A DNA stretch of 64,000 nt from Arenicola marina (Eukaryota; Annelida; Polychaeta; Arenicolidae). The number at the start of each line of letters is the position of its first letter. Position 1 is the stretch's first letter. A program made the position numbers and the translations under genes. Positions 18,701-53,400 of this stretch are shown here, in pieces. The stretch covers positions 53,313,670 to 53,377,669 of the forward strand of contig OZ025248.1 in NCBI GenBank assembly GCA_964019135.1, given 5' to 3'. The notes beneath the pieces were generated by a model. It saw nothing but the letters and a program-made list of their open reading frames with translations, made no database searches and was not told where the DNA came from.

Positions 18701-21700
18701 ATTTTTCGTGGACTGAGAATGGCCAATAGCCGACCGTAGTGATCAAAGATTTTCATTAATTATGAACTGAAAATTGTAATTATAAATAACGGTGAATTGG
18801 GAAAGCGCCAATTTATATCATGTAATCCGCCTCTTCCATTATTGCATGCGGGGAGTTCTCCATTTAATTCATCGTGACCTGGGAATATAGAAATGTGTTC
18901 GTGATTTGGGAACACGACCCCCCTTGTCGTCCCAAATTTTGGCGGGTTCAGTGTGTTAATATCAATACACCCCATCGACAACAGATGTCTATGTAGAGCT
19001 CATATTAAAACTCATATTTCAATCTTGTGACATCAATAATTTCAGTGATTTATAAATTAAAAGAATCGGCTTCATGACAATGTCATCAGACGAACGTAAC
19101 TGTTCAACTCTCCAAGTTCCCAACATATTATATAATATGACGTTTACGAGAACTTTACCTTAACTTTACGACTTACCTAGACCAAACGACAAGTCATCGA
19201 TGCGACGACTGCGGTAAGCTATGTCGGTCCCAGATAGGCTTATTAATTATAAGCGCAAATGCCGCGAAACAATTCTTAGTACCTAAACCAAAACAAAAGT
19301 TGCAAATCCATCGTCTTTCGCAGAGGGCATATGCCAACCAAAAACGATAACTTTCTGTTAGTAATGGCCCGCTAAGTCCAAGCGGAAGCGCTTTCTAATA
19401 AGGGAACTGCTATTTGCTGACGACGCAGCACTGGTTGCGCACTCAGAAAGCCAGCTGCAGAGACTCCTGGATCGACTCTCAAACCACTCTCTGCCTTCGA
19501 CTCACTTCGCTAGGGCTCCATTATATATCTGTTTTCGCCTACGCCGTCAATGCATTTTCACACTCGCTCGCCAGGGCGGCGCTGCGCAAATCGATAGAAA
19601 AAATGCGTCGCGCATTTCTACAAATTAGCGCTGGAACCCAGCCTGAACCTAGTAACACATGAAATCAGGTGATGAAAAGAAAGAGTTCTGTCACCATTTG
19701 AACTTTTTCGAAAGCGTAAAAGATGTGTTTTGCTCTATTAAATACACAAAGATGGTTATTTTGATGTTTTATTCTTGAAAACTATAATGTTGCAAGAAAT
19801 TACAGCTGATTTGACCGTTTATCAAGCATCTGGAAATTTGCCCCCGGCCGACAGCAGCGGTAAAAGCTAGCTTGCGTAGCGCCACCGTGCGGGGAGCTTG
19901 CTCTCAAACGCGTTTTGTTCGCTCTGACTACTAGTCTGTATACGACGCAGTCGTGCTGAGCCAAGGGGCTATTACACCACCAGTGATTACCCTAAATAAC
20001 ATGCCTTTAGAGGTGGTGAATAAGATTGGGGGGGGGGGGCTTGGGTGGGCTTCAACCACCCCCCCCCTTGGGAACCAGAACATAAAACTTACATGTTAAC
20101 ATACATGTTAAAGTCCCAAGTCTTCAGAGAGCAACCCCACCCCTTGGGAAACTGAACATACACTGTTGAAGTCCGGTTCTCCAAGGCCCCCCCCCCCCCC
20201 CCCCCCGGTCGCAAGTTTTCAGAAAGCAACACCCCTCTTGGGAACCTGAACATACAGTGTTAAAGTCGGCTTCTCCGAGGACGTCCTGCCCCCCGCCCCC
20301 CCTCTCCGGTCGCAAGTTTTTCAAAGAGCAACCCCCCGCCCCCACCCCCCTTGGCAAATTCCTAGATCCGCCCCTGCTGGACGAAGAAATAAATACTCGC
20401 ATTGAGAAGGCAGCCACCACCTTTGGTCGGTTAAACAAACGTGCTTGGAAAAATTCAAAACTAACCATTCGCACCAAAATGCTAATCTACAGGGCGTGTG
20501 TTATAAGTAGCCTGCTGTGTGGCAGTAAAACGTGGGCTACATATTGTGGCCGAGAAAAAAAGTTAAACAACTTCCATCTTCGTTGCCTGCGAAACATTTT
20601 AGCAAATGCCGACGTGTTAGCCAGGGCCAACCTCCCGAGCATTCTTGCTCTTGTGAAACAACGACGTCTTCGTTGGCTTGCAATGCAAGATGAACGCATT
20701 CCAAAGGATGTGCTCTACGGTGAGCTACGGTGGCAAAAGGCCAACTGGACGGCCAAAGCTCAGGTTTAAGGATGTTTGAAAGCGTGACATGAAGGCTTTC
20801 GGCATCCATGCAAATTCTTGGGAGGACCTAGCATCCGAAAAGAGGGTATGGTCACGTCTCGTGCGTGAGGGAATGGTCCACCACGACGGGCTCTGGTTTG
20901 ACAAACTGGACTTGAAACGCCAAACTAGACGCCCAGTGAGTACAAACCAGGACCGGTCGACGGGTCATCGATGCGACGACTGCGGGGAGCTCTGTCGGTC
21001 ACAGATAGGCTTGTTCAGTCACAAGCGCAAAATGTCGCGACGCAACTCGTATTACTTTAAATCAAACAAAAGCTGCAAAATCCATCGTCTTTCGTAGACG
21101 GACGGATGCCAACCGAGTTATGGCCGGCCAAGCCTGCCAATAATCGAAAAGTAGAGATCTGCATCTGCAACTCGTTGAGTACACATGTTTCCTAGTATAT
21201 CTCCCGTTTTTTGTTAATAGGGTGTTTATACTACGAACTGCTGGCATATTTAGACGGACGTAATTTTTGGCCCTTTTTGTTTTCAGAGAAATCGGAGGAA
21301 GAGTGCTGACTATTGAGTCTCCAAAGGTAATGCAGTTAACATTGATGCTTTTTATCGGATCTGACAATGCCATGTATAGGGTTGTATGTAAGAGGCTTTT
21401 ATAAATAATTGAATATATTATGAATATATTTCAACAATAGCAAAATACACACACCACCCGATTGGTGTCATCAAAGTCCTCCTCGTTGAGTTCAATACAT
21501 TTTAGTTAGTAACTCTTGCAGTCAGAACTATCACTTTCCTAACGGGCGACTCACTTTAATGGTAGACCAATCTCAAGCTTGGCAGGCGACGCCTTTGTGA
21601 CTCGCAAGCTTGACAGGCGACGCCTTTGTGACTCGCAAGCTTGACAGGCGACGCCTCTCAGGCCTGACATAGCTAGCGGCTCCACCCTTCTCCCCCATGT

Positions 21701-24700: not shown

Positions 24701-27700
24701 TCTTGATCACTGTGTGTGAAGAGACAACCGCACAGCGTAGTTACCTTACATACCTAGCTGGATCTTATATAAGTAGTCCAACCATTTATTATATATAGCC
24801 TCGGCTATGGGGATCCCCGCTAGAGGTTCAGTAGCACTCTCTGCCTTCGACTCACTCTGCTAGGGCTCGATTATATCTCTGTTGTCGCCTGCTTCCTCAA
24901 TGCATTTTAACACTCATTCGCCAAGGCGGCGCTGCGCAAATTGATTGGAAAAATGCGTCGCTCATTTCTACAAATTAGTGCTGGGACTAAGCCTAATAAC
25001 ACATAAAATCAGTTTATGAAAACAAAGCGGTCTGCCACAATTATAACTTTGTCGAATAGGTACAAGACGTTTTTTGCTGTATTAAATGCACAAAGCTCGT
25101 TATTTTGATGTTTTATTCTGGAAAAATATAATAGTTGCAAGAAATTACAGCTGATTTGACCATTTTTCAAGAATCTTGAAATTGGCCCGGCCGACAGCAG
25201 CGGTGAATCTATCTTGCGTAGCGCCACTGTGCGGGGAGCTTGGTACAGTGGCTAACTCGATATCGAGAGGTCGTGAGTTTGATTCCCACGTAGGGTCCCA
25301 ACCTGCACCGCCGTTTCATCCTCTTACGAATGAATCAACTGGTCACCGCCTTCACCAGGAGTATCAGGGCCGGCCCGGTAGCTCAGTGGGTTAGAGCGCT
25401 CGCCTTGAGTGCTCTGGCCACCTGAGAGCCTAACGACACGTGGATCGATGGTTCGCTCCCCGCTGTGGCCATGTCTGTGTGGTCGCAGGGTAAAGATCCC
25501 ATGTCCTTCTTCGCAAAGAGTAGGGGGTTACCCACGGGGGCATGGCTCCACTCTCCCTTACTTCTCCCATTGACGCGATATGACCAAAAGTGGTTAAAGT
25601 ATCACATACCACAGCTGGTGCAGCTCTTACTTGGCGCGGTTTGTCCCTGTTTAGACAATAGTGGTGTGCTATGTGTATGTGTCTGTATGGGCAAATGCCG
25701 GTCAGCCGATGACAATAGTGGTGTGCTATGTGTATGTGTCTGTATGGGCAGATGCCGGTCAGCCGATGACAATAGTGGTGTGCTATGTGTATGTGTCTGT
25801 ATGGGCAGATCCCGGTCAGCCGATGACAATAGTGGTGTGCTATGTGTATGTGTATGTATGGGCAGATCCCGGTCAGCCGATGACAATAGTGGTGTGCTAT
25901 GTGCATGTGTCTGTATGGGCAGATGCCGGTCAGCCGATGACAATAGTGGTGTGCTATGTGTATGTGTCTGTATGGGCAGATGCCGGTCAGCCGATGACAC
26001 TAGTGGTGTGCTATGTGTATGTGTATGTATGGGCAGATGCCGGTCAGCCGATGACAATAGTGGAGTGCTATGTGTATGTGTCTGTATGGGCAGATCCCGG
26101 TCAGCCGATGACAATAGTGGTGTGCTATGTGTATGTGTCTGTATGGGCAGATGCCGGTCAGCCGATGACAATAGTGGTGTGCTATGTGTATGTGTCTGTA
26201 TGGGCAGATGCCGGTCAGCCGATGACAATAGTGGTGTGCTATGTGTATGTGTCTGTATGGGCAGATCCCGGTCAGCCGATGACAATAGTGGTGTGCTATG
26301 TGTATGTGTCTGTATGGGCAGATGCCGGTCAGCCGATGACAATAGTGGTGTGCTATGTGTATGTGTCTGTATGGGCAGATCCCGGTCAGCCGATGACACT
26401 AGTGGTGTGCTATGTGTATGTGTCTGTATGGGCAGATGCCGGTCAGCCGATGACAATAGTGGTGTGCTATGTGTATGTGTCTGTATGGGCAGATCCCGGT
26501 CATCCGATGACAATAGTGGTGTGCTATGTGTATGTGTCTGTATGGGCAGATCCCGGTCAGCCGATGACAATAGTGGTGTGCTATGTGTATGTGTATGTAT
26601 GGGCAGATCCCGGTCAGCCGATGATACTAGTGGTGTGCTATGTGTATGTGTCTGTATGGGCAGATCCCGGTCAGCCGATGACAATAGTGGTGTGCTATGT
26701 GTATGTGTCTGTATGGGCAGATCCCGGTCAGCCGATGACAATAGTGGTGTGCTATGTGTATGTGTCTGTATGGGCAGATGCCGGTCAGCCGATGACAATA
26801 GTGGTGTGCTATGTGTATGTGTCTGTATGGGCAGATCCCGGTCAGCCGATGACACTAGTGGTGTGCTATGTGTATGTGTCTGTATGGGCAGATGCCGGTC
26901 AGCCGATGACAATAGTGGTGTGCTATGTGTATGTGTCTGTATGGGCAGATCCCGGTCAGCCGATGACACTAGTGGTATGCTATGTGTATGTGTCTGTATG
27001 GGCAGATGCCGGTCAGCCGATGACAATAGTGGTGTGCTATGTGTATGTGTCTGTATGGGCAGATCCCGGTCAGCCGATGACAATAGTGGTGTGCTATGTG
27101 TATGTGTCTGTATGGGCAGATCCCGGTCAGCCGATGACAATAGTGGTGTGCTATGTGTATGTGTCTGTATGGGCAGATCCCGGTCAGCCGATGACACTAG
27201 TGGTGTGCTATGTGTATGTGTCTGTATGGACAGATGCCGGTCAGCCGATGACAAGAGTGGTGTGCTATGTGTATGTGTCTGTATGGGCAGATCCCGGTCA
27301 GCCGATGACAATAGTGGTGTGCTATGTGTATGTGTCTGTATGGGCAGATGCCGGTCAGCCGATGACAATAGTGGTGTGCTATGTGTATGTGTCTGTATGG
27401 GCAGATCCCGGTCAGCCGATGACACTAGTGGTGTGCTATTTGTATGTGTCTGTATGGGCAGATGCCGGTCAGCCGATGACAATAGTGGTGTGCTATGTGT
27501 ATGTGTCTGTATGGGCAGATGCCGGTCAGCCGATGACAATAGTGGTGTGCTATGTGTATGTGTCTGTATGGGCAGATCCCGGTCAGCCGATGACAATAGT
27601 GGTGTGCTATGTGTATGTGTATGTATGGGCAGATCCCGGTCAGCCGATGACAATAGTGGTGTGCTATGTGCATGTGTCTGTATGGGCAGATGCCGGTCAG

Positions 27701-30700
27701 CCGATGACAATAGTGGTGTGCTATGTGTATGTGTCTGTATGGGCAGATGCCGGTCAGCCGATGACACTAGTGGTGTGCTATGTGTATGTGTCTGTATGGG
27801 CAGATGCCGGTCAGCCGATGACAATAGTGGTGTGCTATGTGTATGTGTCTGTATGGGCAGATCCCGGTCAGCCGATGACAATAGTGGTGTGCTATGTGTA
27901 TGTGTCTGTATGGGCAGATGCCGGTCAGCCGATGACAATAGTGGTGTGCTATGTGTATGTGTCTGTATGGGCAGATCCCGGTCAGCCGATGACAATAGTG
28001 GTGTGCTATGTGTATGTGTCTGTATGGGCAGATGCCGGTCAGCCGATGACAATAGTGGTGTGCTATGTGTATGTGTCTGTATGGGCAGATCCCGGTCAGC
28101 CGATGACAATAGTGGTGTGCTATGTGTATGTGTCTGTATGGGCAGATCCCGGTCAGTCGATGACAATAGTGGTGTGCTATGTGTATGTGTATGTATGGGC
28201 AGATCCCGGTCAGCCGATGACAATAGTGGTGTGCTATGTGCATGTGTCTGTATGGGCAGATGCCGGTCAGCCGATGACAATAGTGGTGTGCTATGTGTAT
28301 GTGTCTGTATGGGCAGATCCCGGTCAGCCGATGACAATAGTGGTGTGCTATGTGTATGTGTCTGTATGGGCAGATCCCGGTCAGCCGATGACAATAGTGG
28401 TGTGCTATGTGTATGTGTCTGTATGGGCAGATCCCGGTCAGCCGATGACACTAGTGGTGTGCTATGTGTATGTGTCTGTATGGGCAGATGCCGGTCAGCC
28501 GATGACAATAGTGGTGTGCTATGTGTATGTGTCTGTATGGACGGATCCCGGTCAGCCGATGACAATAGTGGTGTGCTATGTGTATGTGTCTGTATGGGCA
28601 GATGCCGGTCAGCCGATGACACTAGTGGTGTGCTATTTGTATGTGTCTGTATGGGCAGATGCCGGTCAGCCGATGACAATAGTGGTGTGCTATGTGTATG
28701 TGTCTGTATGGGCAGATGCCGGTCAGCCGATGACAATAGTGGTGTGCTATGTGTATGTGTCTGTATGGGCAGATCCCGGTCAGCCGATGACAATAGTGGT
28801 GTGCTATGTGTATGTGTATGTATGGGCAGATCCCGGTCAGCCGATGACAATAGTGGTGTGCTATGTGCATGTGTCTGTATGGGCAGATGCCGGTCAGCCG
28901 ATGACAATAGTGGTGTGCTATGTGTATGTGTCTGTATGGGCAGATGCCGGTCAGCCGATGACACTAGTGGTGTGCTATGTGTATGTGTCTGTATGGGCAG
29001 ATGCCGGTCAGCCGATGACAATAGTGGTGTGCTATGTGTATGTGTCTGTATGGGCAGATCCCGGTCAGCCGATGACAATAGTGGTGTGCTATGTGTATGT
29101 GTCTGTATGGGCAGATGCCGGTCAGCCGATGACAATAGTGGTGTGCTATGTGTATGTGTCTGTATGGGCAGATCCCGGTCAGCCGATGACACTAGTGGTG
29201 TGCTATGTGTATGTGTCTGTATGGGCAGATGCCGGTCAGCCGATGACAATAGTGGTGTGCTATGTGTATGTGTCTGTATGGGCAGATCCCGGTCAGCCGA
29301 TGACAATAGTGGTGTGCTATGTGTATGTGTATGTATGGGCAGATCCCGGTCAGCCGATGACAATAGTGGTGTGCTATGTGTATGTGTCTGTATGGGCAGA
29401 TGCCGGTCAGCCGATGACAATAGTGGTGTGCTATGTGTATGTGTCTGTATGGGCAGATGCCGGTCAGCCGATGACAATAGTGGTGTGCTATGTGTATGTG
29501 TCTGTATGGGCAGATGCCGGTCAGCCGATGACAATAGTGGTGTGCTATGTGGATGTGTCTGTATGGGCAGATGCCGGTCAGCCGATGACAATAGTGGTGT
29601 GCTATGTGTATGTGTCTGTATGGGCAGATGCCGGTCAGCCGATGACACTAGTGGTGTGCTATGTGTATGTGTCTGTATGGGCAGATCCCGGTCAGCCGAT
29701 GACAATAGTGGTGTGCTATGTGTATGTGTCTGTATGGGCAGATGCCGGTCAGCCGATGACAATAGTGGTGTGCTATGTGTATGTGTCTGTATGGGCAGAT
29801 GCCGGTCAGCCGATGACAATAGTGGTGTGCTATGTGTATGTGTCTGTATGGGCAGATGCCGGTCAGCCGATGACAATAGTGGTGTGCTATGTGTATGTGT
29901 CTGTTTGGGCAGATGCCGGTCAGCCGATGACAATAGTGGTGTGCTATGTGTATGTGTCTGTATGGGCAGATGCCGGTCAGCCGATGACAATAGTGGTGTG
30001 CTATGTGTATGTGTCTGTATGGGCAGATGCCGGTCAGCCGATGACAATAGTGGTGTGCTATGTGTATGTGTCTGTATGGGCAGATGCCGGTCAGCCGATG
30101 ACACTAGTGGTGTGCTATGTGTATGTGTCTGTATGGGCAGATGCCGGTCAGCCGATGACAATAGTGGTGTGCTATGTGTATGTGTCTGTATGGGCAGATG
30201 CCGGTCAGCCGATGACAATAGTGGTGTGCTATGTGTATGTGTCTGTATGGGCAGATGCCGGTCAGCCGATGACAATAGTGGTGTGCTATGTGTATGTGTC
30301 TGTATGGGCAGATGCCGGTCAGCCGATGACACTAGTGGTGTGCTATGTGTATGTGTCTGTATGGGCAGATGCCGGTCAGCCGATGACAATAGTGGTGTGC
30401 TATGTGTATGTGTCTGTATGGGCAGATGCCGGTCAGCCGATGACAATAGTGGTGTGCTATGTGTATGTGTCTGTATGGGCAGATCCCGGTCAGCCGATGA
30501 CAATAGTTGTGTGCTATGTGTATATGTCTGTATGGGCAGATCCCGGTCAGCCGATGACAATAGTTGTGTGCTATGTGTATGTGTCTGTATGGGCAGATGC
30601 CGGTCAGCCGATGACAATGGTGGGGTGCTATGTGTATGTGTCTGTATGGGCAGATGCCGGTCAGCCGATGACAATAGTGGTGTGCTATGTGTATGTGTCT

Positions 30701-33700
30701 GTATGGGCAGATGCCGGTCAGCCGATGACAATAGTGGTGTGCTATGTGTATGTGTCTGTATGGGCAGATGCCGGTCAGCCGATGACAATAGTGGTGTGCT
30801 ATGTGTATGTGTCTGTATGGGCAGATGCCGGTCAGCCGATGACACTAGTGGTGTGCTATGTGTATGTGTCTGTATGGGCAGATGCCGGTCAGCCGATGAC
30901 AATAGTGGTGTGCTATGTGTATGTGTCTGTATGGGCAGATGCCGGTCAGCCGATGACAATAGTGGTGTGCTATGTGTATGTGTCTGTATGGGCAGATCCC
31001 GGTCAGCCGATGACAATAGTTGTGTGCTATGTGTATGTGTCTGTATGGGCAGATCCCGGTCAGCCGATGACAATAGTTGTGTGCTATGTGTATGTGTCTG
31101 TATGGGCAGATGCCGGTCAGCCGATGACAATAGTGGTGTGCTATGTGTATGTGTCTGTATGGGCAGATGCCGGTCAGCCGATGACAATAGTGGTGTGCTA
31201 TGTGTATGTGTCTGTATGGGCAGATGCCGGTCAGCCGATGACAATAGTGGTGTGCTATGTGTATGTGTCTGTATGGGCAGATGCCGGTCAGCCGATGACA
31301 ATAGTGGTGTGCTATGTGTATGTGTCTGTATGGGCAGATGCCGGTCAGCCGATGACAATAGTGGTGTGCTATGTGTATGTGTCTGTATGGGCAGATGCCG
31401 GTCAGCCGATGACAATAGTGGTGTGCTATGTGTATGTGTCTGTATGGGCAGATCCCGGTCAGCCGATGACAATAGTTGTGTGCTATGTGTATGTGTCTGT
31501 ATGGGCAGATCCCGGTCAGCCGATGACAATAGTTGTGTGCTATGTGTATGTGTCTGTATGGGCAGATGCCGGTCAGCCGATGACAATAGTGGTGTGCTAT
31601 GTGTATGTGTCTGTATGGGCAGATGCCGGTCAGCCGATGACAATAGTGGTGTGCTATGTGTATGTGTCTGTATGGGCAGATGCCGGTCAGCCGATGACAA
31701 TAGTGGTGTGCTATGTGTATGTGTCTGTATGGGCAGATGCCGGTCAGCCGATGACAATAGTGGTGTGCTATGTGTATGTGTCTGTATGGGCAGATGCCGG
31801 TCAGCCGATGCAGACCGACAGAGAGAAGGAGGACGTGAGCGATCCGGTGACGGACCTCAATGTTCCCGGGAGGATCGTGCTCAACCTGTGGAAAGTACTG
31901 CGCCATGAAGTAAGCAAGGTTATATGTGTACTGTCTGTTCTTGCCGGTAGTGTCATCACGATAGGTTGTCTATGTTGAAGGCAGTCAGGGGGATCGCCTT
32001 CTCGGCCTTACTCCTTAATCCATAGTATAAGTCCTTAATCTATTGTATATATCATTATTCTATAATATATATCATTAATCTATAATATATATCATTAATC
32101 TATGGTATATATCATTACCAATTGTGTGTATCCTTAATCCACAGTAATCTACAATATATATCGTTAATCTATATATATATATATTCTTATCCTATTGTGT
32201 GTATCCTTCGTCCGCAGTATATATCCGTAATCTACAGTATATCGTTAATCTATAGTATATACCGGTAGATCTATGATTAATCTATAGTATATATCCTAAA
32301 TCATTTTTTTAAACGTGCTTTTTTCGTAGAATGTCATAGTTATAAGTCCAAACACGTTTCATCGTTGTGCGGGGTTGTTTCAGTGTTTGATCAGTGTCTG
32401 GTTATTTTACCAATGTCTTTGATTGTTGCATCAGTGTCTGTAGTTGTTTTTTTCTTATGCTGGCTGTTGTTGTTTCTTCACTGTCTGGCTGTTGTTGTTT
32501 ATTCACTCTCTGACGGTCCCTCAGGTGACGCTAAACGTCTACAGCTTCGAAAGCGTGGCGTATCACGTGCTGCACCGGCGTCTGCCACTCTTCTCCTGCC
32601 GCACCCTCACCCAGTGGTTCGACCACCGAGACCACCTCCACAGGTGAGTGGCGGCCCAACAGTGGTATCCCCCATGTGTGGTATCCCCCATTTGTGGCAT
32701 CTCCCATGTGTGGCATCCCCCATTTGTGGCATCCAGCACGGTGTGACATCCCCCATGTGTGGTATCCAAAACGCTGTGGCATCCCCCAATGTGTGGCATC
32801 CAACACGATGTGGCATCCCCCATGTGTGATATCCAGCACGCTGTGGCATCCCCCAATGTGTGGCATCCAACACGCTGTGGCATCCCCCAATGTGTGGTAT
32901 CCAGCACGGTGTAACATCCCCCATGTGTGGTATCCAAAACGCTGTGGCATCCCCCAATGTGTGGCATCCAACACGATGTGGCATCCCCCAATGTGTGGCA
33001 TCCAACACGCTGTGGCATCCCCCATGTGTGGTATCCAGCACGCTGTGGCATCCCCCATGTGTGGTATCCAGCATGCTGTGGGAGCCGCCATGTGTGGTAT
33101 CCAGCACGCTGTGGCATCCCTCATGTGTGGCATCCAGCACGCTGTGACATCCCGCATGTGTGGTATCCAGCACGCTGTGACATCCCGCATGTGTGGTATC
33201 CAGCACGCTGTGGCATCCCTCATTCGTGGTATCCAGCACGCTGTGGCATCCCTCATTCGTGGTATCCAGCACGCTGTGACATCCCGCATGTGTGGTATCC
33301 AGCACGCTGTGGCATCCCTCATTCGTGGTATCCAGCACGCTGTGGCATCCCTCATTCGTGGTATCCAGCACGCTGTGACATCCCGCATGTGTGGTATCCA
33401 GCACGCTGTGGCATCCCTCATGTGTGGCATCCCCTATGTGTGGCATCCCCCATGTGTGGCATCCCCCATGTGTGGCATCCCCCATGTGTGGCATCCCCCA
33501 TGTGTGGCATCCCCCATGTGTGGCATCCCCCATGTGTGGCATCCCCCATGTGTGGTATCCAGCACGGTGTGGCATCCCCCATGTGAGGTATCCAGCACGC
33601 TGTGGCATCCCTCATGTGTGGTATCCAGCACGCTGTGGCATCCCTCATGTGTGGCATCCAGCCCGTTGTGGCATCCCCCATGTGTGGTATCCAGCACGGT

Positions 33701-38400: not shown

Positions 38401-41400
38401 CAATCCCAGTGGTAAACATGTACAACAGGAATCCAATCCTTGGTAAACATGTGCAATAGGAATCTAATCCCCATGGTAAACATTTACAATAGGAATCCAA
38501 TCCGTGGTAAACATGTGCAATAGGAATCCAATCCCCGGGGTAAACATGTGCAATAGGAATCCAATCCCCGTGGTAAATACATACAATAGGAATCCAATCC
38601 CAGTGATAAACATGTGCAATAGGAATCCAATCCCAGTGATAAACATGTGCAATAGGAATCCAATCCCCGTGGTAAATACATACAATACGAATCCAATCCC
38701 AGTGATAAACACGTGCAATAGGAATCCAATCCGTGGTAAACATGTGCAATAGGAATCCAATCCCCGGGGTAAACATGTGCAATAGGAATCCAATCCCCGT
38801 GGTAAATACATACAATACGAATCCAATCCCAGTGATAAACACGTGCAATAGGAATCCAATCCGTGGTAAACATGTGCAATAGGAATCCAATCCCCGGGGT
38901 AAACATGTGCAATAGGAATCCAATCCCCGTGGTAAATACATACAATACGAATCCAATCCCAGTGATAAACATGTGCAATAGGAATCCAATCCCCGGGGTA
39001 AACATGTGCAATAGGAATCCAATCCCCGTGGTAAATACATACAATAGGAATCCAATCCCAGTGATAAACATGTGCAATAGGAATCCAATCCCCGGGGTAA
39101 ACATGTGCAATAGGAATCCAATCCCCGTGGTAAATACATACAATACGAATCCAATCCCAGTGATAAACACGTGCAATAGGAATCCAATCCGTGGTAAACA
39201 TGTGCAATAGGAATCCAATCCCCGGGGTAAACATGTGCAATAGGAATCCAATCCCCGTGGTAAATACATACAATACGAATCCAATCCCAGTGATAAACAT
39301 GTACAACAGGAATCCAATCCGTGGTAAACATGTGCAATAGGAATCTAATCCCCATGGTAAACATTTACAATAGGAATCCAATCCGTGGTAAACATGTGCA
39401 ATAGGAATCCAATCCCCGGGGTAAACATGTGCAATAGGAATCCAATCCCCGTGGTAAACATGTGCAATAGGAATCCAATCCCCGGGGTAAACATGTGCAA
39501 TAGGAATCCAATCCCCGTGGTAAATACATACAATACGAATCCAATCCCAGTGATAAACACGTGCAATAGGAATCCAATCCCCGTGGTAAATACATACAAT
39601 ACGAATCCAATCCCAGTGATAAACATGTACAACAGGAATCCAATCCGTGGTAAACATGTGCAATAGGAATCTAATCCCCATGGTAAACATTTACAATAGG
39701 AATCCAATCCGTGGTAAACATGTGCAATAGGAATCCAATCCCCGGGGTAAACATTTAAAATAGGAATCCAATCCCCGGGGTAAACATTTACAATAGGAAT
39801 CCAATCCCCATGGTAAACATGTGCAATAGGAATCCAATCATGTGTTAAACACGTGCAATAGGAATCCAATCCGTGGTAAACATGTGCAATAAGAATCCAA
39901 TCCCCGGGGTAAACATGTGCAATAGGAATCCAATCCCCGTGCTAAACATGTGCAATAGGAATCCAATCCGTGGTAAACATGTGCAATAGGATTCCAATCC
40001 CAGTGGTAAACATGTGCAATAGGAATCCAATCCGTGGTAAACATGTGCAATAGGAACCCAATCCCTATGGTAAACATGTGCAACAGGAATCCCATCCCCG
40101 TGGTAAACATGTACAATAGAAACCCAATCCCCGTGATTAGCATGTGCAATAGAAATCCAATCCCCGTGGTAAACATGTGCAATAGAAATCCAATCCCCGT
40201 GGTAAACATGTGCAATAGAAACCCAATCCCCATGTTTAGCATGTGCAATAGAAATCCAATCCCCGTGGTAAACATGTGCAATAGAAATCCAATCCCCGTG
40301 GTAAACATGTGCAATAGAAACCCAATCCCCATGTTTAGCATGTGCAATAGAAATCCAATCCCCGTAGTAAACATGTGCAATAAGAATCTAATCCCAGTGG
40401 TAAACATGTGAAATAGGAATTCTACTACCCTGCTGCAGGTTGGCGACAGTATTGTGCGGAAAGCTCGAGAGACACTGGAGAGAGCTATCGAATTGGTGGA
40501 GAAGACGGCCAAATGGGGAGCAAAGGTGGTGTATGGGGACACAGACAGGTGAGTCAGGGTGGTGTATGGGGACACAGACAGGTGAGTCAGGGTGGTGTAT
40601 GGGGACACAGACAGGTGAGTCAGGGTGGTGTATGGGGACACAGACAGGTGAGTCAGGGTGGTGTATGGGGACAGACAGGTGAGTCAGGGTGGTGTATGGG
40701 GACACAGACAGGCGAGTCAAGGTGGGGACACAGAGAGGTGAGTGAGGGTGGTGTATGGGGACAGACAGGTGAGTCAGGGTGGTGTATGGGGACACAGACA
40801 GGTGAGTCAGGGTGGTGTATGGGGACACAGACAGGTGAGTCAGGGTGGTGTATGGGGACACAGACAGGTGAGTCAGGGTGGTGTATGGGGACACAGACAG
40901 GTGAGTCAGGGTGGTGTACGGGGACACAGACAGGTGAGTCAGGGTGGTGTATGGGGACACAGACAGGTGAGTCAGGGTGGTGTATGGGGACACAGACAGG
41001 TGAGTCAGGGTGGTGTATGGGGACACAGACAGGTGAGTCAGGGTGGTGTATGGGGACACAGACAGGCGAGTCAAGTTGGGGACACAGACAGGTGAGTCAG
41101 GGTGGTGTATGGGGACACAGACAGGCGAGTCAAGTTGGAGACACAGACAGGTGAGTCAGGGTGGTGTATGGGGACACAGACAGGCGAGTCAAGGTGGGGA
41201 CACAGACAGGTGAGTGAGGGTGGTGTATGGGGACAGACAGGTGAGTCAGAGTGGTGTATGGGGACACAGACAGGTGAGTCAGGGTGATGTATGGGGACAC
41301 AGACAGGTGAGTCAGGGTGGTGTATGGGGACACAGACAGGTGAGTCAGGGTGGTGTATGGGGACACAGACAGGTGAGTCAGGGTGGTGTATGGGGACACA

Positions 41401-44400
41401 GACAGGTGAGTCAAGGTGGTGTATGGGGACACAGACAGGTGAGTCAGGGTGGGGCATGGGGACACAGACAGGTGAGTCAAGGTGGTGTATGGGGACAGAC
41501 AGGTGAGTCAGGGTGGTGTATGGGGACACAGACAGGTGAGTCAGGGTGGTGTATGGGGACACAGACAGGTGATTCAGGGTGGTGTATGGGGACACAGACA
41601 GGTGAGTCAAGGTGGCGTATGGGGACACGGACAAGTGAGTGAGGGTGGTGTATCGGGACACAGACAGGTGAGTCAGGGTGGTGTATGGGGACAGACAGGT
41701 GAGTCAGGGTGGTGTATGGGGACACAGACAGGTGAGTCAGGGTGGCGTATGGGGACACAGACAGGTGAGTCAGGGTGGTGTATGGGGACAGACAGGTGAG
41801 TGAGGGTGGTGTTTGGTGTCACAGACAGGTGAGTCAGGGTGGTTTATGGGGACAGACAGGTGAGTCAGGGTGGTGTATGGGGACACAGACAGGTGAGTCA
41901 GGGTGGTGTATGGGGACAGACAGGTGAGTCAGGGTGGTGTATGGGGACACAGACAGGTGAGTCAGGGTGGTGTATGGGGACACAGACAGGTGAGTCAGGG
42001 TGGTGTATGGGTACACAGACAGGTGAGTCAGGGTGGTGTATGGGGACAGACAGGTGAGTCAGGGTGGTTTTATGGGGACACAGACAGGTGAGACAGGGTG
42101 GTGTATGGGGACACAGACAGGTGAGTCAGGGTGGTGTATGGGGACACAGACAGGTGAGTCAGGGTGGTGTATGGGGTCAGAGACAGGTGAGTCAAGGTGG
42201 TGAATGGGGACACAGACAGGTGAGTCAAGGTGGTGTATGGGGACACAGACAGGTGAGTCAAGGTGGTGTATGGGGACACAGACAAGTGAGTCAGGGTGGT
42301 GTATGGGGACACAGACAGGTGAGTCAGGGTGGTGTATGGGGACAGACAGGTGAGTCAGGGTGGTGTATGGGGACACAGACAGGTGAGTCAGGGTGGTGTA
42401 TGGGGACACAGACAGGCGAGTCAAGGTGGGGACACAGACAGGTGAGTCAGGGTGGTGTATGGGGACACAGACAGGTGAGTCAGGGTGGTGTATGGGGACA
42501 CAGACAGGTGAGTCAGGGTGGTGTATGGGGACACAGACAGGTGAGTCAGGGTGGTGTATGGGGACACAGACAGGTGAGTCAGGGTGGTGTACGGGGACAC
42601 AGACAGGTGAGTCAGGGTGGTGTATGGGGACACAGACAGGTGAGTCAGGGTGGTGTATGGGGACACAGACAGGTGAGTCAGGGTGGTGTATGGGGACACA
42701 GACAGGTGAGTCAGGGTGGTGTATGGGGACACAGACAGGCGAGTCAAGTTGGGGACACAGACAGGTGAGTCAGGGTGGTGTATGGGGACACAGACAGGCG
42801 AGTCAAGTTGGAGACACAGACAGGTGAGTCAGGGTGGTGTATGGGGACACAGACAGGCGAGTCAAGGTGGGGACACAGACAGGTGAGTGAGGGTGGTGTA
42901 TGGGGACAGACAGGTGAGTCAGAGTGGTGTATGGGGACACAGACAGGTGAGTCAGGGTGATGTATGGGGACACAGACAGGTGAGTCAGGGTGGTGTATGG
43001 GGACACAGACAGGTGAGTCAGGGTGGTGTATGGGGGCACAGACAGGTGAGTCAGGGTGGTGTATGGGGACACAGACAGGTGAGTCAGGGTTGTGTATGGG
43101 GACACAGACAGGTGAGTCAGGGTGGTGTATGGGGACACAGACAGGTGAGTCAGGGTGGTGTATGGGGACACAGGTGAGTCAGGGTGGTGTATGGGGACAC
43201 AGACAGGTGAGTCAGGGTGGTGTATGGGGACACAGACAGGTGAGTCAGGGTGGTGTATGGGGACACAGACAGGTGAGTCAGGGTGGTGTATGGGGACACA
43301 GACAGGTGAGTCAGGGTGGTGTATGGGGACACAGACAGGTGAGTCAGGGTGGGGCATGGGGACACAGACAGGTGAGTCAAGGTGGTGTATGGGGACAGAC
43401 AGGTGAGTCAGGGTGGTGTATGGGGACACAGACAGGTGAGTCAGGGTGGTGTATGGGGACACAGACAGGTGATTCAGGGTGGTGTATGGGGACACAGACA
43501 GGTGAATCAGGGTGGTGTATGGGGACACAGACAGGTGAGTCAGGGTGGTGTATGGGGACACAGACAGGTGAGTCAGGGTGGCGCATGGGGACACGGACAA
43601 GTGAGTCAGGGTGGTGTATGGGGACACAGACAGGTGAGTCAGGGTGGTGTACGGGGACACAGACAGGTGAGTCAGGGTGGTGTATGGGGACACAGACAGG
43701 TGAGTCAGGGTGGTGTATGGGGACACAGACAGGTGAGTCAGGGTGGTGTATGGGGACACAGACAGGTGAGTCAGGGTGGTGTATGGGGACACAGACAGGC
43801 GAGTCAAGTTGGGGACACAGACAGGTGAGTCAGGGTGGTGTATGGGGACACAGACAGGCGAGTCAAGTTGGAGACACAGACAGGTGAGTCAGGGTGGTGT
43901 ATGGGGACACAGACAGTCGAGTCAAGGTGGGGACACAGACAGGTGAGTGAGGGTGGTGTATGGGGACAGACAGGTGAGTCAGAGTGGTGTATGGGGACAC
44001 AGACAGGTGAGTCAGGGTGATGTATGGGGACACAGACAGGTGAGTCAGGGTGGTGTATGGGGACACAGACAGGTGAGTCAGGGTGGTGTATGGGGACACA
44101 GACAGGTGAGTCAGGGTGGTGTATGGGGACACAGACAGGTGAGTCAGGGTGGTGTATGGGGACACAGACAGGTGAGTCAGGGTGGTGTATGGGGACACAG
44201 ACAGGTGAGTCAGGGTGGTGTATGGGGACACAGGTGAGTCAGGGTGGTGTATGGGGACACAGACAGGTGAGTCAGGGTGGTGTATGGGGACACAGACAGG
44301 TGAGTCAGGGTGGTGTATGGGGACACAGACAGGTGAGTCAGGGTGGTGTATGGGGACACAGACAGGTGAGTCAGGGTGGTGTATGGGGACACAGACAGGT

Positions 44401-47400
44401 GAGTCAAGGTGGTGTATGGGGACACAGACAGGTGAGTCAGGGTGGGGCATGGGGACACAGACAGGTGAGTCAGGGTGGTGTATGGGGACACAGACAGGTG
44501 AGTCAGGGTGGTGTATGGGGACACAGACAGGTGATTCAGGGTGGTGTATGGGGACACAGACAGGTGAATCAGGGTGGTGTATGGGGACACAGCCAGGTGA
44601 GTCAGGGTGGTGTATGGGGACACAGACAGGTGAGTCAGGGTGGCGCATGGGGACACGGACAAGTGAGTCAGGGTGGTGTATGGGGACACAGACAGGTGAG
44701 TCAGGGTGGTGTATGGGGACAGACAGGTGAGTCAGGGTGGTGTATGGGGACGCAGACAGGTGAGTCAAGGTGGTGTATGGGGACACAGACAGGTGAGTCA
44801 GGGTGGTGCATGGGGACACAGACAGGTGAGTCAAGGTGGTGTATGGGGACAGACAGGTGAGTCAGGGTGGTGTATGGGGACACAGACAGGTGAGTCAGGG
44901 TGGTGTATGGGGACGCAGACAGGTGAGTCAAGGTGGTGTATGGGGACACAGACAGGTGAGTCAAGTTGGGGACACAGACAGGTGAGTCAGGGTGGTGTAT
45001 GGGGACACAGACAGGCGAGTCAAGTTGGAGACACAGACAGGTGAGTCAGGGTGGTGTATGGGGACACAGACAGGCGAGTCAAGGTGGGGACACAGACAGG
45101 TGAGTGAGGGTGGTGTATGGGGACAGACAGGTGAGTCAGAGTGGTGTATGGGGACACAGACAGGTGAGTCAGGGTGATGTATGGGGACACAGACAGGTGA
45201 GTCAGGGTGGTGTATGGGGACACAGACAGGTGAGTCAGGGTGGTGTATGGGGGCACAGACAGGTGAGTCAGGGTGGTGTATGGGGACACAGACAGGTGAG
45301 TCAGGGTGGTGTATGGGGACACAGACAGGTGAGTCAGGGTGGTGTATGGGGACACAGACAGGTGAGTCAGGGTGGTGTATGGGGACACAGACAGGCGAGT
45401 CAAGTTGGGGACACAGACAGGTGAGTCAGGGTGGTGTATGGGGACACAGACAGGCGAGTCAAGTTGGAGACACAGACAGGTGAGTCAGGGTGGTGTATGG
45501 GGACACAGACAGTCGAGTCAAGGTGGGGACACAGACAGGTGAGTGAGGGTGGTGTATGGGGACAGACAGGTGAGTCAGAGTGGTGTATGGGGACACAGAC
45601 AGGTGAGTCAGGGTGATGTATGGGGACACAGACAGGTGAGTCAGGGTGGTGTATGGGGACACAGACAGGTGAGTCAGGGTGGTGTATGGGGACACAGACA
45701 GGTGAGTCAGGGTGGTGTATGGGGACACAGACAGGTGAGTCAGGGTGGTGTATGGGGACACAGACAGGTGAGTCAGGGTGGTGTATGGGGACACAGACAG
45801 GTGAGTCAGGGTGGTGTATGGGGACACAGGTGAGTCAGGGTGGTGTATGGGGACACAGACAGGTGAGTCAGGGTGGTGTATGGGGACACAGACAGGTGAG
45901 TCAGGGTGGTGTATGGGGACACAGACAGGTGAGTCAGGGTGGTGTATGGGGACACAGACAGGTGAGTCAGGGTGGTGTATGGGGACACAGACAGGTGAGT
46001 CAAGGTGGTGTATGGGGACACAGACAGGTGAGTCAGGGTGGGGCATGGGGACACAGACAGGTGAGTCAGGGTGGTGTATGGGGACACAGACAGGTGAGTC
46101 AGGGTGGTGTATGGGGACACAGACAGGTGATTCAGGGTGGTGTATGGGGACACAGACAGGTGAATCAGGGTGGTGTATGGGGACACAGCCAGGTGAGTCA
46201 GGGTGGTGTATGGGGACACAGACAGGTGAGTCAGGGTGGCGCATGGGGACACGGACAAGTGAGTCAGGGTGGTGTATGGGGACACAGACAGGTGAGTCAG
46301 GGTGGTGTATGGGGACAGACAGGTGAGTCAGGGTGGTGTATGGGGACGCAGACAGGTGAGTCAAGGTGGTGTATGGGGACACAGACAGGTGAGTCAGGGT
46401 GGTGCATGGGGACACAGACAGGTGAGTCAAGGTGGTGTATGGGGACAGACAGGTGAGTCAGGGTGGTGTATGGGGACACAGACAGGTGAGTCAGGGTGGT
46501 GTATGGGGACGCAGACAGGTGAGTCAAGGTGGTGTATGGGGACACAGACAGGTGAGTCAAGTTGGGGACACAGACAGGTGAGTCAGGGTGGTGTATGGGG
46601 ACACAGACAGGCGAGTCAAGTTGGAGACACAGACAGGTGAGTCAGGGTGGTGTATGGGGACACAGACAGGCGAGTCAAGGTGGGGACACAGACAGGTGAG
46701 TGAGGGTGGTGTATGGGGACAGACAGGTGAGTCAGAGTGGTGTATGGGGACACAGACAGGTGAGTCAGGGTGATGTATGGGGACACAGACAGGTGAGTCA
46801 GGGTGGTGTATGGGGACACAGACAGGTGAGTCAGGGTGGTGTATGGGGGCACAGACAGGTGAGTCAGGGTGGTGTATGGGGACACAGACAGGTGAGTCAG
46901 GGTGGTGTATGGGGACACAGACAGGTGAGTCAGGGTGGTGTATGGGGACACAGACAGGTGAGTCAGGGTGGTGTATGGGGACACAGGTGAGTCAGGGTGG
47001 TGTATGGGGACACAGACAGGTGAGTCAGGGTGGTGTATGGGGACACAGACAGGTGAGTCAGGGTGGTGTATGGGGACACAGACAGGTGAGTCAGGGTGGT
47101 GTATGGGGACACAGACAGGTGAGTCAGGGTGGTGTATGGGGACACAGACAGGTGAGTCAGGGTGGGGCATGGGGACACAGACAGGTGAGTCAAGGTGGTG
47201 TATGGGGACAGACAGGTGAGTCAGGGTGGTGTATGGGGACACAGACAGGTGAGTCAGGGTGGTGTATGGGGACACAGACAGGTGATTCAGGGTGGTGTAT
47301 GGGGACACAGACAGGTGAATCAGGGTGGTGTATGGGGACACAGACAGGTGAGTCAGGGTGGTGTATGGGGACACAGACAGGTGAGTCAGGGTGGCGCATG

Positions 47401-50400
47401 GGGACACGGACAAGTGAGTCAGGGTGGTGTATGGGGACACAGACAGGTGAGTCAGGGTGGTGTACGGGGACACAGACAGGTGAGTCAGGGTGGTGTATGG
47501 GGACACAGACAGGTGAGTCAGGGTGGTGTATGGGGACACAGACAGGTGAGTCAGGGTGGTGTATGGGGACACAGACAGGTGAGTCAGGGTGGTGTATGGG
47601 GACACAGACAGGCGAGTCAAGTTGGGGACACAGACAGGTGAGTCAGGGTGGTGTATGGGGACACAGACAGGCGAGTCAAGTTGGAGACACAGACAGGTGA
47701 GTCAGGGTGGTGTATGGGGACACAGACAGGCGAGTCAAGGTGGGGACACAGACAGGTGAGTGAGGGTGGTGTATGGGGACAGACAGGTGAGTCAGAGTGG
47801 TGTATGGGGACACAGACAGGTGAGTCAGGGTGATGTATGGGGACACAGACAGGTGAGTCAGGGTGGTGTATGGGGACACAGACAGGTGAGTCAGGGTGGT
47901 GTATGGGGACACAGACAGGTGAGTCAGGGTGGTGTATGGGGACACAGACAGGTGAGTCAGGGTGGTGTATGGGGACACAGACAGGTGAGTCAGGGTGGTG
48001 TATGGGGACACAGACAGGTGAGTCAGGGTGGTGTATGGGGACACAGGTGAGTCAGGGTGGTGTATGGGGACACAGACAGGTGAGTCAGGGTGGTGTATGG
48101 GGACACAGACAGGTGAGTCAGGGTGGTGTATGGGGACACAGACAGGTGAGTCAGGGTGGTGTATGGGGACACAGACAGGTGAGTCAGGGTGGTGTATGGG
48201 GACACAGACAGGTGAGTCAAGGTGGTGTATGGGGACACAGACAGGTGAGTCAGGGTGGGGCATGGGGACACAGACAGGTGAGTCAGGGTGGTGTATGGGG
48301 ACACAGACAGGTGAGTCAGGGTGGTGTATGGGGACACAGACAGGTGATTCAGGGTGGTGTATGGGGACACAGACAGGTGAATCAGGGTGGTGTATGGGGA
48401 CACAGACAGGTGAGTCAGGGTGGTGTATGGGGACACAGACAGGTGAGTCAGGGTGGCGCATGGGGACACGGACAAGTGAGTCAGGGTGGTGTATGGGGAC
48501 ACAGACAGGTGAGTCAGGGTGGTGTATGGGGACAGACAGGTGAGTCAGGGTGGTGTATGGGGACGCAGACAGGTGAGTCAAGGTGGTGTATGGGGACACA
48601 GACAGGTGAGTCAGGGTGGTGCATGGGGACACAGACAGGTGAGTCAAGGTGGTGTATGGGGACAGACAGGTGAGTCAGGGTGGTGTATGGGGACACAGAC
48701 AGGTGAGTCAAGGTGGTGTATGGGGACGCAGACAGGTGAGTCAAGGTGGTGTATGGGGACACAGACAGGTGAGTCAGGGTGGTGCATGGGGACACAGACA
48801 GGTGAGTCAAGGTGGTGTATGGGGACAGACAGGTGAGTCAGGGTGGTGTATGGGGACACAGACAGGTGAGTCAGGGTGGTGTATGGGGACACAGACAGGT
48901 GATTCAGGGTGGTGTATGGGGACACAGACAGGTGAGTCAAGGTGGCGTATGGGGACACGGACAAGTGAGTGAGGGTGGTGTATCGGGACACAGACAGGTG
49001 AGTCAAGGTGGTGTATGGGGACAGACAGGTGAGTCAGGGTGGTGTATGGGGACACAGACAGGTGAGTCAGGGTGGCGTATGGGGACACAGACAGGTGAGT
49101 CAGGGTGGTGTATGGGGACAGACAGGTGAGTGAGGGTGGTGTTTGGTGTCACAGACAGGTGAGTCAGGGTGGTGTATGGGGACAGACAGGTGAGTCAGGG
49201 TGGTGTTTGGTGTCACAGACAGGTGAGTCAGGGTGGTGTATGGGGACAGACAGGTGAGTCAGGGTGGTGTATGGGGACACAGACAGGTGAGTCAGGGTGG
49301 TGTATGGGGACAGACAGGTGAGTCAGGGTGGTGTATGGGGACACAGACAGGTGAGTCAGGGTGGTGTATGGGGACACAGACAGGTGAGTCAGGGTGGTGT
49401 ATGGGTACACAGACAGGTGAGTCAGGGTGGTGTATGGGGACAGACAGGTGAGTCAGGGTGGTTTTATGGGGACACAGACAGGTGAGTCAGGGTGGTGTAT
49501 GGGGACACAGACAGGTGAGTCAGGGTGGTGTATGGGGACACAGACAGGTGAGTCAGGGTGGTGTATGGGGTCAGAGACAGGTGAGTCAAGGTGGTGAATG
49601 GGGACACAGACAGGTGAGTCAAGGTGGTGTATGGGGACACAGACAGGTGAGTCAAGGTGGTGTATGGGGACACAGACAAGTGAGTCAGGGTGGTGTATGG
49701 GGACACAGACAGGTGAGTCAGGGTGGTGTATGGGGACAGACAGGTGAGTCAGGGTGGTGTATGGGGACACAGACAGGTGAGTCAGGGTGGTGTATGGGGA
49801 CACAGACAGGTGAGTCAGGGTGGTGTATGGGGACAGACAGGTGAGTCAGGGTGGTGTTTGATGTCACAGACAGGTGAGTCAGGGTGGTGTATGGGACAGA
49901 CAGGTGAGTCAGGGTGGTGTTTGGGGACACAGACAGGTGAGTCAGGGTGGTGTATGGGGACACAGACAGGTGAGTCAGGGTGGTGTATGGGGACAGACAG
50001 GTGAGTCAGGGTGGTGTATGGAGACAGACAGGTGAGTCAGGGTGGTGTATGGGGACACAAACAGGTGAGTCAGGGTGGTGTATGGGTACACAGACAGGTG
50101 AGTCAGGGTTGTGTATGAGGACAGACCGGGGAGTCAGGGTGGTGTATGGAGACACAGACAGGTGAGTCAGGGTGGTGTATGGGGACAGACAGGTGAGTCA
50201 GGGTGGTGTATGAGGACAGACCGGGGAGTCAAGGTGGTGTATGAGGACAGACCGGGGAGTCAGGGTGGTGTATGGAGACACAGACAGGTGAGTCAGGGTG
50301 GTGTATGGGGACAGACAGGTGAGTCAGGGTGGTGTATGGAGACAGACAGGTGAGTCAGGGTGGTGTATGGGGACACAAACAGGTGAGTCAGGGTGGTGTA

Positions 50401-53400
50401 TGGGTACACAGACAGGTGAGTCAGGGTTGTGTATGAGGACAGACCGGGGAGTCAGGGTGGTGTATGGAGACACAGACAGGTGAGTCAGGGTGGTGTATGG
50501 GGACAGACAGGTGAGTCAGGGTGGTGTATGAGGACAGACCGGGGAGTCAAGGTGGTGTATGAGGACAGACCGGGGAGTCAGGGTGGTGTATGGAGACACA
50601 GACAGGTGAGTCAGGGTGGTGTATGGGGACAGACAAGTGGGTCAGGGTGGTGTATGGGGACACAGAAAACTGTGAAAACTTCATTTTTGTTTTACTATGA
50701 AAAGTACATTTTCGTTTTACTAATAAAAGTACATTTTCGTTTTACTAATAAAAGTACATTTTCGTTTCACTATAAAAAATTGATGTTCGTTTTGCTACGA
50801 AAACGTCATTTTCGGTACACTATGGAATATAGAAAAAGGGTTGTTTTTGTCAATTTTCTGGCATGGACAGATCTTGTTCTGTGAATTATTGTATGTGGGA
50901 ATGCTGGGCAGGGCATAAACATAGGTATTGTCACTAATGCGTGTATATTGTATTTCCTGCACTTAGTTCACGTCATATATGGCTTGTCCTGCAGTATGTT
51001 TATCCTGCTGGAGGGACGGAGCAAGGAGGACGCCTTCAGGATTGGCTATGAGATTGCTGATGCTGTCACAGCCGACAACCCCAAGCCCATGAAACTCAAA
51101 TTCGAAAAGGTGACCTTATGTATATCTCACCGGTATCCTTGTCATGCGTACCAGAATGGTCGACTCTGCCTTTAGCAAAGAATAATGACCATGCTTTGCT
51201 AGTCTGCCTTTGTAATATTACCATAGAAGGTAACTTATGCGTTAAAGAAAACCAACAATTGGCCAAACGGAGCACAGCAGGCCAAGTTAGTGTCTCGGGG
51301 GGGGGGGGGGGCACGACATCCTCTTTCTCTCTCGACGGTCAATGTGAATTGATCGAACCTATGCGAGTGCAGACTACACCTTCCTGTAGCGCAACTCCAA
51401 AACAATACAATAACTAAATAGTAGGTGACAGATAAAAAGCTATATCGCTTGGCGGCAATAATGCTTTTCTCCTTTACAGGTCTACATGCCGTGTGTGCTA
51501 CAGACAAAGAAGAGATATGTTGGTTTCATGTACGAGACTCCTGACCAAGCCGAACCAACTTTTGATGCCAAGGGCATTGAAACAGTCCGCAGAGACACAT
51601 GTCGCGCTGTCTCCAAGGTAACGGTCAGCCACGCTGTCTCCAAGGTAACTGTCAGCCACGCTGTCTCCAAGGTAACTGTCAGCCACGCTGTCTCCAAGGT
51701 AACTGTCAGCCACGCTGTCTCCAAGGTAACGGTCAGCCACGCTGTCTCCAAGGTAACTGTCAGCCACGCTGTCTCCAAGGTAACTGTCAGCCACTCTGTC
51801 TCCAAGGTAACTGTCAGCCACGCTGTCTCCAAGGTAACTGTCAGCCACGCTGTCTCCAAGGTAACTGTCAGCCACGCTGTCTCCAAGGTAACTGTCAGCC
51901 ACTCTGTCTCCAAGGTAACTGTCAGCCACGCTGTCTCCAAGGTAACGGTCAGCCACGCTGTCTCCAAGGTAACTGTCAGCCACGCTGTCTCCAAGGTAAC
52001 TGTCAGCCACGCTGTCTCCAAGGTAACTGTCAGCCACGCTGTCTCCAAGGTAACTGTCAGCCACGCTGTCTCCAAGGTAACGGTCAGCCACGCTGTCTCC
52101 AAGGTAACTGTCAGCCACGCTGTCTCCAAGGTAACGGTCAGCCACGCGGTCTCCAAGGTAACTGTCAGCCACGCTGTCTCCAAGGTAACTGTCAGCCACG
52201 CTGTCTCCAAGGTAACTGTCAGCCACGCTGTCTCCAAGGTAACTGTCAGCCACTCTGTCTCCAAGGTAACTGTCAGCCACTCTGTCTCCAAGGTAACTAT
52301 CAGCCACTCTGTCTCCAAGGTAACTATCAGCCAAACTGTATCCAAGGTAACTATCAGCCAAACTGTATCCAAGGTAACTATCAGCCAAACTGTATCCAAG
52401 GTAACTATCAGGCAAACTGTATCCAAGGTAACTATCAGCCAAACTGTATCCAAGGTAACTTTCAGCAACACTGTCTTCAAGGTAACTATCAGCCAAACTG
52501 TATCCAAGGTAACTATCAGCCAAACTGTATTCAAGGTAACTATCAGCCAAACTGTATTCAAGGTAACTATCAGCCAAACTGTATCCAAGGTAACTTTCAG
52601 CAACGTTGCAACCGAATCGCGCATTATTATAAACGATGCCGACGTGACATTACGGTGTGCTACGGGGCCACCTCGAAGGGGCGTCCTAGCTTCGCCTTCG
52701 CCTGAGTTTACAATGTGTTTTATGTTAGTATGTTAGGAAACAATGTGTTCTATACGTACATTTCCGAATAAAAGCAAGAGCATTTCTGAAACGTATTGCT
52801 GCTGCAGTAGCCCCGAATGAAATAAGTGGCGATTATTAGGTTATTACACTCTCGCAGCAATGTTTTTTCCTCGGAATTGTTCATATGTTTTGAATGGAAA
52901 GGATGTATTTATAATCTTGGTGCATATACTGCATGCAATAAATAACACAATGCAATGACCATAGGATCCCCATTGCATTAGGAAGCGATGGAAATATTAA
53001 AATGAGACCTGAGACCGTTGTTTGTCAACGCCAGATCCTGGAGAGATCGCTAAAGATCCTGTTTACGAGCCGCGACATCAGCCAGGTGAAGCAGTATGTC
53101 CAGCGACAATGCCACAAGTTGATGGAGGGCCGCGTCAGCATCCAGGACTGTGTCTTTGCCAAGGAGTTCCGCGGGATGAACGGCTATAAGCCAGCAGCCT
53201 GCGTCCCTGCCTTGGAAATAGCCAAGTATGTTCGTCAGTGTGAAATCCCCATTGATTACTAGTATAGTACATTTCCATAACGACGCCGTGGTTAATTAAT
53301 GGCATTCTAATGTCATTTAATTCCAGTCGATATTGTATGCAAGCATTCCTGATTCCATGATTCGTGATTGCGTTATGGAAACTAACCAGTGCTAGTAATA

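Follow-up and report, generated by a model that had tools for sequence, protein, structure and literature searches.

A tandem array of the REV3 catalytic exon end and its splice donor is probably a mirage-like junction minisatellite

In a 64,000-nucleotide stretch of DNA (contig OZ025248.1, positions 53,313,670 to 53,377,669; the whole stretch is here called the window), the intron that follows the catalytic exon of REV3 begins with a 33-bp tandem array, which is very probably a junction minisatellite of the kind called a "mirage" in amphioxus, silent behind an intact first splice donor. Tandem Repeats Finder (TRF) analysis of the window indicated a period of 33, 315.6 copies and 90% matches at positions 40525-50666 (forward strand, as are the REV3 exons and junction minisatellites below), and 315 junctions in 48 distinct unit variants were counted there, in line with the roughly 300 tandem junctions announced by an earlier reading made from the letters (the sequence-only reading). 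The unit is composed of exactly 24 exon bases, the exon tail at 40525..40548, and nine intron bases (gtgagtcag), the first and authentic donor GTGAGTCAG at 40549..40557. Because homology fixes the exon end, the start of the array can be placed 24 bases inside the exon and the unit divided 24 + 9. We conclude that the unit is an exon end with its donor and not foreign intron DNA, as had been proposed.

Homology indicated that the host exon, x9 (40439..40548), encodes ..AKVVYGDTD and the first two bases of a Ser codon and thus contains polymerase motif C. The joined translation of x9 and the next two exons matched yeast Rev3 in PDB entries 7lxd and 6v8p (E 3e-42), and VVYGDTD was invariant across eight aligned sequences. 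In tblastn comparisons, the match ended at 40546-40549 in 10 of 10 REV3 relatives, and the next exon was matched near 50995 in nine of the 10. Consistent with these boundaries, the acceptor ctgctgcag precedes x9 and the donor GTGAGTCAG comes after it, and exon x10 (50995..51109) begins with the T that completes the Ser codon, followed by ATG TTT. Moreover, in a tree of 30 REV3 proteins the window sequence grouped with Capitella and Paralvinella (support 99/93), and that grouping was nested in a lophotrochozoan group of nine rows (99/96), away from Branchiostoma lanceolatum. We conclude that the exon is the motif C exon of REV3, in keeping with the sequence-only reading, and that the host, as placed by its REV3 protein, is annelid-like and not amphioxus.

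The array is dense in strong donors. GT was kept at +1/+2 in 286 of the 315 junction-like sites and GTGAGT in 272, and CAGGTGAGT occurred 264 times in the array versus once in the remaining 53,858 bases of the window. Duplexes with the U1 5′ end gave −12.2 kcal/mol for the first donor, which ranked second strongest among 13 REV3 donors compared, and pairing was at least as good in 264/315 junctions, the first included. The hundreds of strong donors foreseen by the sequence-only reading thus amount to 264 of equal predicted strength. The unit also contains TGAGTCA, the AP-1 consensus, which was found in 262 copies in the array and nowhere else in the window.

The exon frame at the first donor reads ..GAC ACA GAC AGG TGA, so that a stop follows directly after D-T-D and, as had been suggested, a message spliced from a later donor would end prematurely; intron retention would meet the same stop. 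The further suggestion that each next copy reads AGG TGA held for the first four copies; afterwards the copies are out of frame, partly returning, because 81 of 314 unit spacings differ from 33 bp (33 bp in 233, 31 in 46, 26 in 23 and other values in 12). Drift beyond the fourth copy is without effect, as the first TGA alone matters. The part lost after the premature TGA would include the C-terminal zinc finger (Pfam), and a later-donor message would presumably be degraded or yield a truncated enzyme without its zinc-finger end. Exon definition favors the exon-proximal donor for a 110-base exon, and we infer from the sequence that the first donor is the sole donor in use.

One way in which the array could be of use to the gene is if its many donors tuned REV3 output through unproductive splicing, premature stop and decay, the length of the array setting the level. 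Both the 264 sites whose U1 pairing equals or betters that of the first donor and the TGA immediately beyond that donor are what such a device would employ, but the decoy donors show no preservation. Distinct point changes numbered 10 over the nine donor positions and 25 over the other 24 positions of the unit; donor positions vary as often as the others, and decoy donors therefore appear to be neither purged nor preserved. A neighboring 27-bp array, described below, has an open frame and would act otherwise, and the same array design is found at unrelated donors. We consider regulatory tuning improbable.

The order of units hinted at turnover of the array: successions of units came back as duplicated blocks, of which the longest counts 53 units and is shifted by 50. 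The commonest variant occurred 120 times, and mean similarity to the exon copy, taken per 20 units, ran from 0.914 to 0.979 without trend (0.907 in the last 15 units). The same 53 variants in identical order could also indicate an artefact in which the assembler multiplied copies. Such an origin is highly improbable for the array: 48 distinct variants stand in an ordered mixture, the window is without N in a contig of 77 Mb, arrays of the same design are found at other loci, and 35.8% of the bases of 16 stretches sampled elsewhere lie in arrays.

Dispersed elements that carry splice sites, such as introners, are another source of donors within introns. The units do carry a donor, but each array examined contains sequence of its own exon, and all 130 exact genome matches to a 29-mer of the 33-bp unit fell inside this array; these concern exact copies only, as diverged copies in the genome were not sought. 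By these matches the same sequence is not spread across introns of many genes, as introners would be, and an introner or similar element is barely conceivable here. Moreover, the unit does not resemble a recursive (ratchet) splice site, in which an acceptor with a pyrimidine tract directly precedes the donor, as only seven of the 24 bases upstream of its donor are pyrimidines (this unit alone was examined).

The array is instead readily explained if a short segment, the end of the REV3 exon and the first nine intron bases, was duplicated in tandem. A duplication that reaches from the exon six to nine bases or more into the intron would keep the first donor whole. Splicing from the exon-proximal donor would then give a normal mRNA, and further copies would become intron. 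Since the copies would lie within the intron and the first donor would be whole, they would be silent and able to expand, perhaps by unequal exchange or slippage. Duplication of an acceptor would carry more risk, as extra exon sequence could enter the message from an upstream copy, and this difference alone may account for a bias toward donors.

Arrays that resemble this one are known from amphioxus. Mirages in the Adh3, globin, troponin C and PGBD5 genes are described as minisatellite-like tandem duplications across exon-intron boundaries that carry AG/GT signals; regular splicing is reportedly undisturbed, and their length is unstable (PMC3087553, PMC3902484). As far as these accounts go, mirages and the REV3 array are alike in boundary-spanning tandem units with the sequence of the host exon and in many intact splice signals: the 33-bp array lies across an exon-intron boundary and uses its exon's sequence, and GT is intact in 286/315 of its units and U1 pairing in 264/315. 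They differ in size, as the passages give three and six copies of 150 to 160 bp for BflGb6 and units of 10 to 72 bp for Adh3 (PMC3087553), compared with 315 copies of 33 bp. They also differ in host, the described mirages being cephalochordate, where the name was coined, and the arrays reported here occurring in several genes of one annelid-like genome; by REV3 tree placement, the window does not come from a cephalochordate. The B. lanceolatum REV3 gene model itself repeats exon ends, with the motif A stretch YTHPVLVLDFQSLYPS.. given three times and ..YETPDQREPEFDAKGIETVRRDGCPA-SK twice, and the latter repeat sits at the junction of the window's 27-bp array. We infer that the model has drawn mirages into the annotation.

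A human example has nearly the same unit. The 31-bp variable number tandem repeat (VNTR) of CBS, c.1444_1467+7(16_21), comprises by its name 24 exon and seven intron bases (PMC2630376). Like that repeat, the 33-bp unit is an exon end and an intron start with the donor, 24 + 9 bases compared with 24 + 7, whereas the available description of the CBS repeat gives 16 to 21 copies at one human locus and the REV3 array holds 315. Alternative donors are reportedly used at the CBS repeat, according to Lievers in 2001, and Turri in 1995 reportedly described a human minisatellite with multiple splice donors in IFI6 (6-16). In human segmental duplications, internal tandem repeats at exon-intron boundaries account for 27 intron modifications, with units of on average 30 bp in four copies in recent paralogues, and arrays of hundreds of donors do not appear in the passages seen (PMC2812944). 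Long minisatellites are described in the introns of earthworm metallothionein genes, and the available passages do not state whether they cross splice sites (PMC12783039). Among the matches listed from the open-access literature, no paper dealt with annelid junction arrays or with arrays of hundreds of donors. We conclude that the kind of array is known and that its copy number, its annelid-like host and its prevalence across genes are new.

REV3 contains further arrays of the same design. Exon x11 (51480..51617, ending ..RRDTCRAVSK) ends ..CGCTGTCTCCAAG directly before gtaac. Its last 13 bases and 14 intron bases make up a 27-bp unit that recurs in 37 copies (51605..52605), with the donor GTAAC... 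The spacing is exactly 27 in 36/36 cases, the donors are equally strong in 37/37, and the read-through frame is open along the full array. A protein-coding repeat was considered for this array and rejected, as the changes look unconstrained: 36 units showed 15 synonymous, 40 non-synonymous and 0 stop changes, near the expected fractions of 0.28, 0.71 and 0.01, so that no coding constraint is visible. A third junction minisatellite, with 4.7 copies of a 42-bp unit (54518..54715; 15 exon and 27 intron bases, donor gtcagc..), follows exon x14 (54371..54532, ending ..WQRTYHQLSQ), the exon before the last. On the acceptor side, a 57-bp array of 108 copies (25654..31810, forward strand) ends three bases before the acceptor of exon x1 or includes it; it is a possible counterpart of the donor arrays, with the acceptor at 31814 or within the last unit. 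Between the donor at 24528 and exon x15, three of 14 intronic TRF arrays overlapped a junction, a number reached or exceeded in 5e-5 of trials that placed the arrays at random within their introns, and 10 of the 14 lay no more than 20 bases from a junction, which happened in 0 of 200,000 random trials.

A smaller observation concerns the start of exon x13: a 61-bp repeat, present about twice at 53536-53690, ends in a sequence that resembles the acceptor and first bases of that exon (TTAAAGGCGGCTGG, and TTGAAG followed by GCGGCTGG), and it could be a small acceptor-side duplication.

The 867-Mb assembly that holds the window (in contig C1) was examined for similar arrays in other genes. In POLD1, of which a human probe located 20 exons (a further small one may have been missed), six of 19 donors were straddled by arrays of the exon's own end and donor (53 bp in seven copies, 47 bp in 42, 50 bp in 25, 54 bp in 20, 51 bp in 29 and 78 bp in nine). 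In REV3, three of 17 donors were straddled in the stretch counted, which excludes the first exons. Donor-straddling arrays were also found at three of 40 kinesin exons (interval 2 to 20%), with units of 71, 89 and 61 bp in at least 5.7, 4.4 and 5.8 copies, respectively, as cut by the stretch end. The kinesin sample, added so that polymerases would not be singled out, comprised the first 40 by E value of 133 kinesin-domain matches on large contigs, with five small-contig matches skipped, and all 40 were kept in the denominator, though some pieces stop short of the true donor. Two further arrays, L054 and L057, start just past the donor without exon sequence and were uncounted. Across the sample, 12 of 76 donors have an array of their own donor, or nine of 59 without REV3. 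As arrays built alike occur in other genes, the process extends beyond the REV3 locus, and the amplification is not special to REV3. An idea of the sequence-only reading, that error-prone synthesis by REV3 feeds back on its array, finds no support, the same design being present at POLD1, kinesin and other REV3 donors.

Donors and acceptors were affected unequally. Under one strict rule (minimum array size 100 bp and 3.5 copies, nested TRF rows merged, eight arrays in REV3 and 11 in POLD1, the two-copy 61-bp repeat excluded), arrays straddled 9/36 donors and 0/36 acceptors of the two polymerase genes (Fisher P 0.002). Treating the doubtful REV3 acceptors (those of the 57-bp array and of the 61-bp repeat upstream of x13) as cases gave P 0.014 for one and P 0.046 for both (2/36). 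On the acceptor side, the kinesin analysis covered the first 20 exons, the second 20 being represented by their donor sides. Among the first 20, two 5′ ends were picked out by a crude rule; as one of the arrays stops short of the acceptor and the other is ambiguous, no sure case was counted. In all nine polymerase donor arrays, the unit holds at least nine intron bases (two POLD1 boundaries are uncertain by one base), and so the first donor is whole in each. Unit length was a multiple of 3 in all three REV3 units and three of six POLD1 units, six of nine together (P 0.04), for which in-frame selection on unit length was considered within this set of two genes. A survivorship null, with uniform origin and survival of harmless duplications, placed roughly 6% of arrays at donors. 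By contrast, the observed shares were six of 11 in POLD1 (P 1.2e-5) and three of eight in REV3 (P 0.008), REV3 having prompted the test and POLD1 not, and the two were jointly reached in 0 of 2,000,000 simulations.

One candidate for the source of this excess is a mutation process linked to splicing, in which R-loops, U1-bound nascent RNA or pausing at donors would make donors preferred targets of tandem duplication, beyond their being safe havens. The donor-acceptor asymmetry and the share above the survivorship null are as such a process predicts, but selection yields the same asymmetry, since duplication of an acceptor could bring the additional copies into the spliced message. Moreover, acceptor-side arrays do occur: a 52-bp array of 11 copies in a gene on contig C7 that we take to be POLA1-like runs in its last copy from ttgctag into the exon as GTGAAGTCTGAAGTGAACAAG.., with the 57-bp REV3 array as a possible second example. 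The hairpin propensity of three repeat stretches was no higher than that of shuffled sequences, which says little about R-loops. Hairpins themselves were rejected as the driver of the arrays, with 0/3 folded sequences above shuffles. We regard a splicing-linked process as doubtful. An unlikely but conceivable reading is that, in this genome, some process tied to transcription or splicing amplifies exon ends with donors by preference, that many introns consequently open with a minisatellite of their own donor, and that the 315 copies in REV3 are the far tail.

Several points weigh against the reading as a junction minisatellite. The gene tests were limited to most of REV3, POLD1 and the 40 kinesin exons. 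In 16 stretches (10 kb each, placed at round coordinates; L017-L032), 57,358 of 160,000 bases lay within TRF arrays with a period of at least 9, and donor-like motifs were found in seven of 29 arrays versus 4.9 expected at −8 kcal/mol, in six versus 3.3 at −9 and in none versus 1.6 at −10. As this is no clear enrichment, most arrays of the genome need not stem from junctions. The thresholds of the point-change count in the 33-bp array and of the REV3 placement trials were set after inspection of the arrays. Use of the first donor is a probable reading of the sequence, assembly could have altered the copy number, and the 53-unit block could be an assembler duplication. It seems that arrays at junctions form a subset of the genome's arrays that is linked to genes.

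Splice-site choice is usually studied with few competing donors, and the REV3 array offers 264 of equal predicted strength behind a 110-base exon, with the nearby 27-bp array as a second case, in which later donors preserve an open frame. Should the choice always fall on the first donor, distance from the upstream acceptor (exon definition) would be the only deciding factor; if later donors are also taken, the gradient of their use would be a quantitative rule. The prevalence in the sampled genes suggests that amplified donors are tolerated in a worm genome at a fair proportion of its introns, and donor arrays would supply material for introns to lengthen and for new ones to arise.

Other features were noted in the window and the sampled stretches. 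An open frame of 3811 codons at 5433-16865 (forward strand), which contains several tandem repeats that keep the frame (18, 15, 36 and 12 bp), is presumably the giant central exon of REV3; Pfam gave only a weak collagen-like match below the cut-off. No Rfam family reached its gathering score in the window. An intronic open frame at 20170-20766 (forward strand) resembles, by eye, a fragment of a retrotransposon protein. In a POLD1 intron, a 23-bp array of 102 copies (L014, 4710-7039; C14:11710709-11713038) runs from about 20 bases past the donor almost to the acceptor. Three of the 16 stretches, L018, L023 and L025, consist of arrays end to end, and by eye a 68-bp unit of L023 (minus strand) reads AAG, then GTAAGC, after an exon-like stretch. 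Lastly, two 54-bp arrays on different contigs, at window positions 1-460 and L015 1890-4948, by eye share a similar tRNA-like stretch (AGTGTAGTGATTAGCGCACTGGAC and GGTGTAATGGTTAGCGTACTAGAC).

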